Shown: piece by piece, positions 158 through 3,014 of the stretch
Numbering within the stretch: the stretch's first letter is position 1
Layout of the letters: every line of letters starts with the position of its first letter
Source: Chloroflexota bacterium
GTDB lineage: Bacteria; Chloroflexota; Chloroflexia; Chloroflexales; Roseiflexaceae
NCBI GenBank assembly: GCA_013388755.1
Contig: JACAEQ010000040.1
Coordinates: 1-43,463, forward strand
Reading direction: 5' to 3'
Length of the DNA stretch: 43,463 nt
Notes under the pieces: model-generated
Databases searched by the model: none
Seen by the model: the letters and a program-made list of their open reading frames with translations, nothing else
Told to the model about the DNA's origin: nothing
Position numbers and translations under genes: made by a program

Positions 158-2470
158 CTATCGGCGGGTCATGGTGAGCGCCACACGGCCGATCATTTCG
201 ATCAATTGCTCGAAGGTGAACGGCTTCTCCAGTACCTCTTTGATGCCGGGCGATGGCGGATGGGGGTGGATCGTACCGTTGTGACCGGTCATCAGCACCA
301 CCGGTAATTCGGGCGCCTGCGCGGCGAGTTGCCGGGCAAGCGTTTCCCCATCCATGATCGGCATCACGATATCACTGATCACCAGGTCGAACGACGCGCG
401 GCGAACGTGATCCAGCGCCTCGCGCCCGTCTGTCGCGATCGTGACCTGCATACCTTCCGCTTGCATCAAGCGCGCCAGCGCCTGAGCCACGTTAAGCTCG
501 TCCTCAACGAGCAGCACACGCAACCCCTGCAGTATGTCGCGGTCGAAGCGTTGATCCTGCGTTCCTGAACGATCGCTGATGATCGGCAGCGTGACGATCA
601 TGGTCGTACCCTGGCCAACAATGCTGCGAACACGTATGGTGCCACCGTGGCCCTCAATGATCCCATGGCTGATTGCCAGTCCAAGCCCGGTTCCGGGGGT
701 GGAACTTGCGTTCATGGCACCTTTGGTTGTTACGAATGGCTGAAAGATCTGGTCAATCATTTCGGGCGGGATGCCGCAGCCAGTGTCGCTGACCGCGAGT
801 TCGATCCGCGGTCCATGGCGGTTCAGTTCGATTGTGATGGTTCCACTACCCTTTTCACGCATCGCATCGCGCGCGTTGGTGATCAGGTTCAGCAGCACCT
901 GCGCGATCTGTCCCGGGTCGCACAGTGTCGGCGGAACCTCGTGAAGGTGCAGTTCCACCACGATATTCTCTTTGCCGAGTTCGCGTTCAACCAGCGTCGC
1001 CGTCTCCCTGATCAAGTCACTCAGCCGGGTCAATTCGTGCTGCGTACTGCGCCGACGTGCAAAGGTCAGTAAGCCGCTGGTAATGCTGCGCCCGCGCAAG
1101 CACATGCGAACGGCCACCTCAAGTGCCTCGTTCTTTTCCGCAACGCTATCGCTGCTGAGGCCGAGTTGCGCATGACCGAGGACACCGGCCAGCAAGTTGT
1201 TGAACTCGTGCCCGATGCCGGCTGCGAATGTACCGAGCGCGGCCAGTTTCGACGAACGCACCAGTTCATCCTGCTTCACCTGCAATTCGGTGAACAACCG
1301 CACACGTTCGACGGCGCGGGCAACCTGGGAGGCAAAGCCGAGCAGGACACGCCGATCGCTGTCGCTGAGCGGCGTCGTCGTGCCCAGCGCGAGACAGATT
1401 CCGCCGATGGTTTGCTGTTCAATAACCAGAGGGATGACAACGAGCGACGGCCATAGCGCTGCGCCAGGATGCAATTCCGCCAGGCGTTGTGCATCAACCT
1501 GATGGACATCAAGGCGCTGGAGTTCTGCACGGTACGCGTCCGGGCTCCAGGTCCAGCCAGGCGGCAGGATGGTTGTTGACAACAAGCGGGCCGGTTGTTC
1601 GTCGAGCAGCACGGCCCAGTGCGCCCTGGCGTCGAGGAGCGTGGCCAGGCGTGTACTCACCGTGTCAATCAGGCGATCGGGTTCGTCGCTGGCGATCATG
1701 GCGGCTGCCAGGCTCTGCAGCCGCTCTAGCTTTGATGCAAGTTGTTGTGACTCACGGGCCAGCCGGGCATTGAGCTTGCTTTCGGTCTGTAAGGCGACGA
1801 CCGTCTTGAACCAGCGCTGCAGCATGATCAACGGCGCGATCGAGATTGGCAGTAACCAGGGGTTGTACTGCAGGAGCACTGCCAGTAAGACACCAAACGG
1901 CGTGGTTGCGAAGTGAACCCAGTGAACGGTACGGTAGCTGTCGCGGTAAACGCGTAGCAGTTGTTGTCGGGTGGCAAAAGCAACGACGGTTGAGACCAGC
2001 AACGTATTGAGCGCATAGTACATAGCCGCCATCAGAATAAATGTAACCAGCGCGAAGGGTCCCGAAAAGGGCGGCGCGTTCGGGCCATTGCCAAGGGTGT
2101 AGATGATCATGAGTACCTGGTACGTAATTGTCCGGGTGGCGATATTGAAGGCGATTTTGTACCAGGGGCGGCGGTTGAGGAGATCGGCGACCAGCGTGCC
2201 GCCGGCGATCGCCAGGATGCCGGCATGGCCGGTGACGGCGACAAGGAAGATCGTCGGGGCATCTGCAATCGTCATTGCCACCCCGTGGCCGGGGGTGACC
2301 TCGAAACTAAACTCATAATAGTCGGCGATAGCAAAGGCAAGCGCGCAGATTACCAGCAAGAACGCATGGTCAGCCAGGCGCATAGATGGGATCGTGCTGA
2401 TAAACACGACTGCTGCGATCACCCATACGACATAGAGATACCTGCGTGCAGCTTGCGACAGCGATAGCAT
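158..2470 (-). CDS. membrane hybrid sensor histidine kinase (6-7 TM, GAF, HisKA, HATPase, REC)
   Basis: A 770-residue signal-transducing kinase. The first ~235 residues form about six hydrophobic segments of an unrecognised membrane sensor. A coiled coil and a GAF-like domain (~265-400) follow, then a HisKA helix with phospho-acceptor His in GIGHEFNN, an ATPase domain with N box (NLITNARDAM), G1 (DTGCGIP) and G2 (GTGLGLAI), and a C-terminal receiver with phospho-acceptor Asp in ISDIVMP and Lys in LEKPF. All catalytic motifs are intact, so it should autophosphorylate and pass phosphate to its own receiver. The ATG at 2470 is preferred over a GTG at 2497 because AAAGGGAA lies just before it. 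It follows the block ending at the terminator at 2633-2661, so it is probably transcribed separately. The input signal cannot be told. Confidence 0.9.
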   Translation of the reverse strand: MLSLSQAARRYLYVVWVIAAVVFISTIPSMRLADHAFLLVICALAFAIADYYEFSFEVTPGHGVAMTIADAPTIFLVAVTGHAGILAIAGGTLVADLLNRRPWYKIAFNIATRTITYQVLMIIYTLGNGPNAPPFSGPFALVTFILMAAMYYALNTLLVSTVVAFATRQQLLRVYRDSYRTVHWVHFATTPFGVLLAVLLQYNPWLLPISIAPLIMLQRWFKTVVALQTESKLNARLARESQQLASKLERLQSLAAAMIASDEPDRLIDTVSTRLATLLDARAHWAVLLDEQPARLLSTTILPPGWTWSPDAYRAELQRLDVHQVDAQRLAELHPGAALWPSLVVIPLVIEQQTIGGICLALGTTTPLSDSDRRVLLGFASQVARAVERVRLFTELQVKQDELVRSSKLAALGTFAAGIGHEFNNLLAGVLGHAQLGLSSDSVAEKNEALEVAVRMCLRGRSITSGLLTFARRRSTQHELTRLSDLIRETATLVERELGKENIVVELHLHEVPPTLCDPGQIAQVLLNLITNARDAMREKGSGTITIELNRHGPRIELAVSDTGCGIPPEMIDQIFQPFVTTKGAMNASSTPGTGLGLAISHGIIEGHGGTIRVRSIVGQGTTMIVTLPIISDRSGTQDQRFDRDILQGLRVLLVEDELNVAQALARLMQAEGMQVTIATDGREALDHVRRASFDLVISDIVMPIMDGETLARQLAAQAPELPVVLMTGHNGTIHPHPPSPGIKEVLEKPFTFEQLIEMIGRVALTMTRR

Positions 2471-2632: not shown

Positions 2633-2661
2633 AAAAAAAGAGGGCGGGGGAACCCCGCCCT
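2633..2661 (-). terminator. Rho-independent terminator after the 33-residue miniprotein gene
   Basis: On the minus strand a perfect 9-bp stem (AGGGCGGGG / CCCCGCCCT with a 3-base loop, 2641-2661) is followed by C and seven T residues (2633-2639). It lies 25 bases after the stop codon of the small gene at 2687-2788. It is one of the clearest intrinsic terminators in the window and probably ends transcription of the upstream signalling genes. Confidence 0.85.
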
Positions 2662-2686
2662 GCCTTACGGATCGGTGCGCTGGAGT

Positions 2687-2788
2687 CTATACCCACTTGC
2701 CTTCGGCGCCGGCTGCCAGCAGGAATGAGGCGAGAGCGCCGAGCACCAGTGCGACCTTCCAGTATGCGCGCGTGATGTGCCACTTCAT
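2687..2788 (-). CDS. 33-residue single-pass membrane miniprotein
   Basis: A short frame reads MKWHITRAYWKVALVLGALA and continues SFLLAAGAEGKWV. It has a positively charged, aromatic N-terminus, one hydrophobic segment of about 15 residues (VALVLGALASFLLAA) and a short charged tail. Support for a real gene: a strong ribosome binding site (AAGAAAGGGG, about 6 bases before ATG) and a perfect intrinsic terminator 25 bases after the stop. It lies 226 bases downstream of adenylate kinase on the same strand, so it may be the last gene of that operon or have its own promoter. No family is recognised; small subunits or regulators of membrane complexes look like this. The size is below the usual cut-off of gene finders. 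Confidence 0.65.
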   Translation of the reverse strand: MKWHITRAYWKVALVLGALASFLLAAGAEGKWV

Positions 2789-3014
2789 GGGAGACCCCTT
2801 TCTTCGCTGATAATCATCGTGTACCACACGAGATGGTTGCCAAGGGTCCCCTCCGCTCCGCTTCGGGCGTATGCCCTCCTTCTGTGGTGTTATTGTTCAT
2901 CACCCCGTGGACCGATCCGCAGATTCCTTATACGATATTTTGACTATTACAAAGGTTGTGATTCATCAACCTGGGGTTAATTTTCCTTAACTTTACTGAG
3001 ATCAGCCTGTCGCA

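Follow-up and report, generated by a model that had tools for sequence, protein, structure and literature searches.

In the Agr module a small hydrophobic precursor, a small membrane protein and a multi-pass membrane kinase (AgrD, AgrB and AgrC) lie close together, and in cobalt ECF transporters CbiN works with CbiM. The gene family described here, which was traced from a contig of a Roseiflexaceae bacterium of the phylum Chloroflexota (GCA_013388755.1, JACAEQ010000040.1; the window, i.e. the whole stretch analysed, is 43,463 nucleotides long), likewise has a small hydrophobic protein, a small membrane protein and a membrane kinase near each other, and, as in CbiN/CbiM, a small membrane protein occurs with an S-component-fold protein. 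It differs from Agr in that no Agr families are among its Pfam matches, that the sensor has another fold and that processing is hypothetical here, and from CbiN/CbiM in that CbiN is larger, is part of a transporter and has no detected sequence relation to the window protein. Small regulators of sensor kinases are already known, as the accessible parts of PMC8404706 and PMC10576120 describe for MgrB, a membrane protein of 47 residues that regulates the sensor kinase PhoQ. Like MgrB, the window protein is a very small, predicted single-pass membrane protein (33 residues, one hydrophobic segment) for which we propose, by analogy, an action on a membrane sensor kinase; unlike MgrB, to which no sequence relation was found, its gene is a fixed neighbour of its sensor, the sensor domain is folded differently and the partners include HD-GYP proteins. 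The S-component fold is also known from membrane sensor domains of kinases, those of the 5TMR-LYT group (PMC11109136, in its accessible part, where the words Chloroflex, MASE, small protein and HD-GYP are absent), from which the window kinase is set apart by having no PF07694 match in the Pfam scan. The published literature searched yielded no account of the small-protein family, its spread across the phylum, its S-component-fold partners or DUF5317, and no paper on MASE9.

The expression unit in the window lies entirely on the minus strand, between an upstream adenylate kinase gene (Pfam ADK) and a downstream sensor kinase gene, with a putative receiver/c-di-GMP-type ORF of 912 residues on the same strand further upstream. 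Its features are as follows.

2927..2932, minus strand: TATAAG, a -10-like hexamer and likely the promoter for the small transcript (read in the sequence)
2911..2920, minus strand: 5' strand of the long-range helix, GCGGATCGGT, close to where the transcript is inferred to begin (cognate-pairing permutation test)
2849..2868, minus strand: conserved 20-nt leader motif, GCCCGAAGCGGAGCGGAGGG, exact in seven of nine loci and with one mismatch in two
2844..2851, minus strand: 5' arm of the helix over the ribosome site, GGGGACCC (predicted fold)
2795..2801, minus strand: ribosome binding site AAAGGGG, 6 nt 5' of the ATG, kept in most of the nine loci
2790..2797, minus strand: 3' arm of the ribosome-site helix, GGGTCTCC, overlapping the ribosome site (predicted fold)
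2687..2788, minus strand: small ORF, 33 residues with one membrane segment, stop included, reading MKWHITRAYWKVALVLGALASFLLAAGAEGKWV
2668..2676, minus strand: 3' strand of the long-range helix, ACCGATCCG (cognate-pairing test)
2633..2661, minus strand: intrinsic terminator, 9-bp stem and seven T, beginning 25 nt past the stop
158..2470, minus strand: downstream sensor with a predicted S-component-fold membrane domain, GAF, HisKA, HATPase_c and receiver (Pfam; AlphaFold2 and fold search of residues 1-254)

The sequence-only reading had seen here a membrane miniprotein, overlooked until then, that has an expression unit to itself, and both the 33-codon frame with its ribosome site and single hydrophobic segment (2788-2687) and the terminator after it (2661-2633) are present as described, the terminator stem (2661-2641) consisting of 9 pairs (8 G-C) around a 3-nt loop and followed by the tail CTTTTTTT. 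That reading had included neither the structure in the leader nor the link to the sensor kinase downstream, nor the spread of the family through the phylum. At the contig start, positions 1-45 of the window are a long C run, probably an assembly or sequencing edge.

Relatives of the small ORF were sought by DNA-pattern and profile searches. Within the family, 26 genomes yielded a single clear homologue of the small protein; it belongs to another genus, is 59% identical and has a terminator of its own, a similar kinase downstream and, in the same genome, an identical copy of the leader motif (2868-2849). A search of 82 genomes of the order for this motif with up to two mismatches, with candidates read by eye, gave nine loci in which the motif is joined by an MKW-type ORF and, past the stop, a hairpin. 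The window and eight other genomes of the order have in common a promoter-like site, the leader motif, a helix over the ribosome site, an MKW...KW protein and the hairpin. A profile of the nine small proteins run over 158 genomes of the class returned the same nine members. Two genomes (G051 and G053) encode an identical small protein with 9 synonymous and 0 non-synonymous codon changes, differences by codon position over 15 equal-length pairs numbered 97, 46 and 124, and the protein is conserved along its length. The homologue in another genus, the nine class members and the synonymous-only pair place the small ORF beyond chance, and conservation of the frame within Chloroflexota, which had been named as the check on the proposed miniprotein, is borne out; on this evidence from sequence, the small ORF is a real gene of a kind often missed in gene lists. 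The nine small proteins had no match in Pfam, NCBIfam or PADLOC and no significant match in PHROGs (one match, E 0.43, for one of the nine), and matches of their profile to PDB sequences were weak (best E 0.077) and were discarded. Among rejected candidates, none of the weak matches L003 to L012 from the 26 family genomes was accepted (L003 and L007 were read); seven of twelve contig stretches with the motif (L016, L018, L019, L020, L023, L024, L025) and a further seven from the order search (L028, L029, L030, L037, L038, L039, L040) were unrelated on reading; and of three weak profile matches in the class, L049 and L050 were rejected from genomic context and L051, inside a 496-residue frame, without reading.

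The small ORF appears to have its own promoter. In eight of the nine loci a TANNNT word is found 2-13 nt 5' of the long-range helix, compared with 137 of 2700 random positions, and TTGC-type -35 words stand upstream in most of the nine; one locus failed the strict promoter word, and at the window locus the scan chose an overlapping word, TATAAG there being a reading by eye. The unit does follow the adenylate kinase/c-di-GMP-type gene run on the same strand, as noted in the sequence-only reading, but because it has its own leader and promoter-like site it is more than the tail of that run. Words of the GTACTAC/GTAGTAC type also recur near small-ORF promoters (L068-L072, L078 and L079; by eye) and may be where a shared regulator binds.

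Base pairing joins the 5' end of the leader to the stretch between the stop codon and the terminator, and this end-to-end pairing of the transcript covaries across the nine loci. Cognate strands of the long-range helix had a mean energy of -26.3 kcal/mol versus -19.2 kcal/mol for non-cognate strands, none of 20000 permutations was as low as the cognate pairing, and eight of the nine cognate pairs ranked first, the exception being G049. A second predicted helix joins GGGGACCC to GGGTCTCC over the ribosome site, with a compensated change in G049; the ribosome site had been called strong, and while AAAGGGG does stand 6 nt before the ATG, it is predicted to be partly buried in this helix. Whole-transcript folding energies were not consistently low (z from -3.2 to +0.4), so that our claim of RNA structure rests on the covariation in the cognate/non-cognate comparison. 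All Rfam 15 matches in the window stretch and the nine loci stayed below the gathering score.

In all eight loci with sequence beyond the small ORF, the gene that follows on the same strand encodes a homologous sensor histidine kinase, the ninth contig (G051) ending there, and when the 82 order genomes were searched with the membrane domain of the sensor, the eight best matches were exactly these eight loci. The window sensor may alternatively start at a GTG at 2497. AlphaFold2 modelled its residues 1-254 with a pLDDT of 91.4 and a pTM of 0.85, and the top Foldseek rows for this model include S-components for riboflavin, thiamin and biotin (best E 4.3e-3, with no row under 1e-3), while a second aligner placed ECF S-component-type entries at all of ranks 1-20 (Z 15.9 to 9.4; next 7.2). 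The membrane domain is thus confidently predicted to adopt the six-helix S-component fold of ECF transporters. MASE9 (PF20972) is the nearest Pfam model, its gathering score being passed by two of ten relatives (L093 and L112) with the others below; the window kinase has no MASE9 match in Pfam, and none was found in its genome at E ≤ 0.01.

The small ORF often accompanies this membrane domain across the phylum, whichever output the domain is joined to. Directly after the eight best matches in the order, the next six sensors are each preceded by a hydrophobic ORF, 34-35 residues long and with a Trp close to its end, quite unlike that of the window in sequence (e.g. MVKKFMKQVVRVTLFMAPALAGLAAVLPSSSKWL); no upstream small ORF was found in the genome ranked next (G079), though closer members have one, and the following genome (G046, where the match is split) carries one that is 32 residues long. 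Phylum searches used evenly drawn samples of 400 genomes, 62 of which were matched by the membrane-domain profile. These and the earlier matches gave 101 loci with upstream DNA, 99 of them with at least 300 nt, in which we looked for ORFs of 22-50 residues with a ribosome site, a hydrophobic stretch and a Trp in the last four residues. A small ORF was found just upstream in 30 of the 99 loci (29 pass all criteria and L078 fails only on hydrophobicity) and none was detected in the other 69; one further carrier, without Trp, came from a relaxed motif. Typical upstream ORFs encode about 31 residues with one helix, before genes for kinases or HD-GYP proteins, and among ten other carriers the output domain was of HD-GYP type in eight and a kinase in two. 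Controls gave one match in 101 reverse strands and eight in 123 upstream regions of other long ORFs, or 1 in 116 once seven true members were set aside. On a tree of the 101 membrane domains the small-ORF label clusters (8 changes versus a shuffled mean of 26.1, with 0 of 500 shuffles as low), and the Chloroflexales clade carries it in 15 of 15 cases whereas its sister clade, an internal negative control, does so in 0 of 13. A terminator was detected in 11 of the 30 small-ORF loci, including 9 of the 15 in Chloroflexales, and mostly went undetected outside that order.

Many members keep Trp near both helix ends and a conserved MKW at the N-terminus. Trp in the phylum-detected set is circular as evidence because the search required it; the unbiased cases are the first nine members and the seven found by hydrophobicity alone before any Trp criterion, beyond which Trp conservation rests on the controls.

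Run over the 400 genomes, a profile of the 30 small proteins produced 32 rows at E ≤ 1e-3, with one in the reversed-sequence control, and a DUF5317 gene lies within 5 kb of at least 23 of these 32 small ORFs (a raw count, with positions matched by hand). Ten of the 32 were absent from the profile, and at least six of these ten are within 5 kb of a DUF5317 gene. The small ORF is directly 5' of the DUF5317 gene in several loci, and since no sensor was detected for some of these, the small protein may have partners besides the sensor. Near the locus in the window there is no DUF5317 gene, though two are present elsewhere in its genome. We claim no function for DUF5317, as its model was of moderate confidence and gave no fold match. 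A protein of about 219 residues without a Pfam match is conserved just upstream of the small ORF (L052, L053, L056-L059), its gene being preceded by DUF5317 in several loci.

The small protein is probably a small partner or a peptide signal of its membrane sensor. Sequence and model together suggest, at about even chances in our judgement, a single-pass micro-subunit or tethered ligand of the neighbouring S-component-fold sensor. With the N-terminus predicted inside and the C-terminus outside, the short outer tail (GAEGKWV in the window) would occupy or rest on the outward-facing pocket of the S-component-fold domain, and the protein would set kinase activity, or that of the HD-GYP enzyme in other lineages, as a tethered ligand or co-sensor. 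In Chloroflexales it would be expressed from a short transcript of its own, and the helix over the ribosome site and the pairing of the RNA ends would tune its translation. We favour a micro-subunit or tethered ligand because the small ORF follows one domain whatever its output, because features are kept at both helix ends and because several members have a Pro at the would-be signal peptidase I site. Counting against it are the 69 of 99 domain genes without a detected small ORF, G079 among the sensors lacking one, the members without Trp, a candidate without a membrane segment in G077 and the small ORFs that precede DUF5317 with no sensor detected. The small protein is a concrete candidate partner or ligand for one sensor domain that, with kinase or HD-GYP output, is tied to it across the phylum; the results also reveal a Chloroflexota gene family below the usual length limits of gene finders and link DUF5317, of unknown function, to signalling. 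Whether tethered or released, the peptide of about 30 residues, usually Trp-tailed, might be the dedicated ligand of an S-component-fold receptor in an undescribed Chloroflexota signalling system in which DUF5317 processes or handles it, a tentative idea that we hold to be on the doubtful side.

If the peptide is released, the helix would be an export signal, the S-component-fold sensor would serve as the receptor, and a membrane protease, with DUF5317 as a candidate, would free the short C-terminal tail (GKWV-like). Such a pheromone would be more striking than a micro-subunit, and we consider it unlikely. The binding of small solutes by S-component folds (PMC11109136, accessible part), the separate transcript of the small ORF, two identical tandem copies in one genome (G184) and the frequent nearness of DUF5317 speak for it. 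AxA-like residues precede the short tail in many members, but in five genomes (G175, G489, G160, G316 and G307) a Pro comes directly after the ..GA. A Pro at that position should block signal peptidase I. The conserved MKW would moreover be superfluous in a mere signal peptide, DUF5317 has no protease fold match and is absent near the window's locus, and no recognised pheromone, processing or receptor families are among the Pfam matches of the small protein, the sensors or DUF5317.

The remaining two explanations fit less well than a micro-subunit or a pheromone. A type I toxin, that is a small hydrophobic toxin whose mRNA is silenced by pairing of its ends and by an undetected antisense RNA, would account for a 33-residue one-helix protein, and the hok and aapA1 mRNAs resemble the small-ORF mRNA in their end pairing and covered ribosome site; the fixed place beside one sensor type across the phylum, with a tree-like distribution, and the lack of any match in the plasmid, phage and viral collections searched make it very improbable, and a simple, crude scan showed no sigma-70-like site on the opposite strand of the locus. 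Least probable of all is a translated leader with no role other than attenuation of the downstream kinase gene, since, for all that a terminator lies between small ORF and sensor and a Trp near the ORF end, the protein is conserved along its length, the ORF is kept outside Chloroflexales where the terminator mostly is not detected, and TATACT-like words past the terminator (by eye) suggest a separate transcript for the sensor.

Several loci depart from the common arrangement of small ORF and sensor. Upstream of an HD-GYP gene in G184 (L094), two tandem ORFs 156 nt apart encode the same protein, MKWATLKMKVIYGLMVIASLVMAAGADSRWA. The frame MKWQPTTQSETLKW upstream of a related sensor in G077 (L077/L171) keeps both ends without the membrane segment, is possibly a shrunken member and sits in a leader able to pair with itself. 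Small ORFs without Trp, ending in GGASLKGF or similar, are found upstream of sensor-type genes at L205, L210, L214 and L160, with a DUF5317 match after the sensor at L210. At L207 (G328:C100), the small ORF MLRIKYTLFRALSLAGLIVGLVMAAGAGNKWS is convergent with a sensor-type gene, lying on its opposite side and not preceding it.
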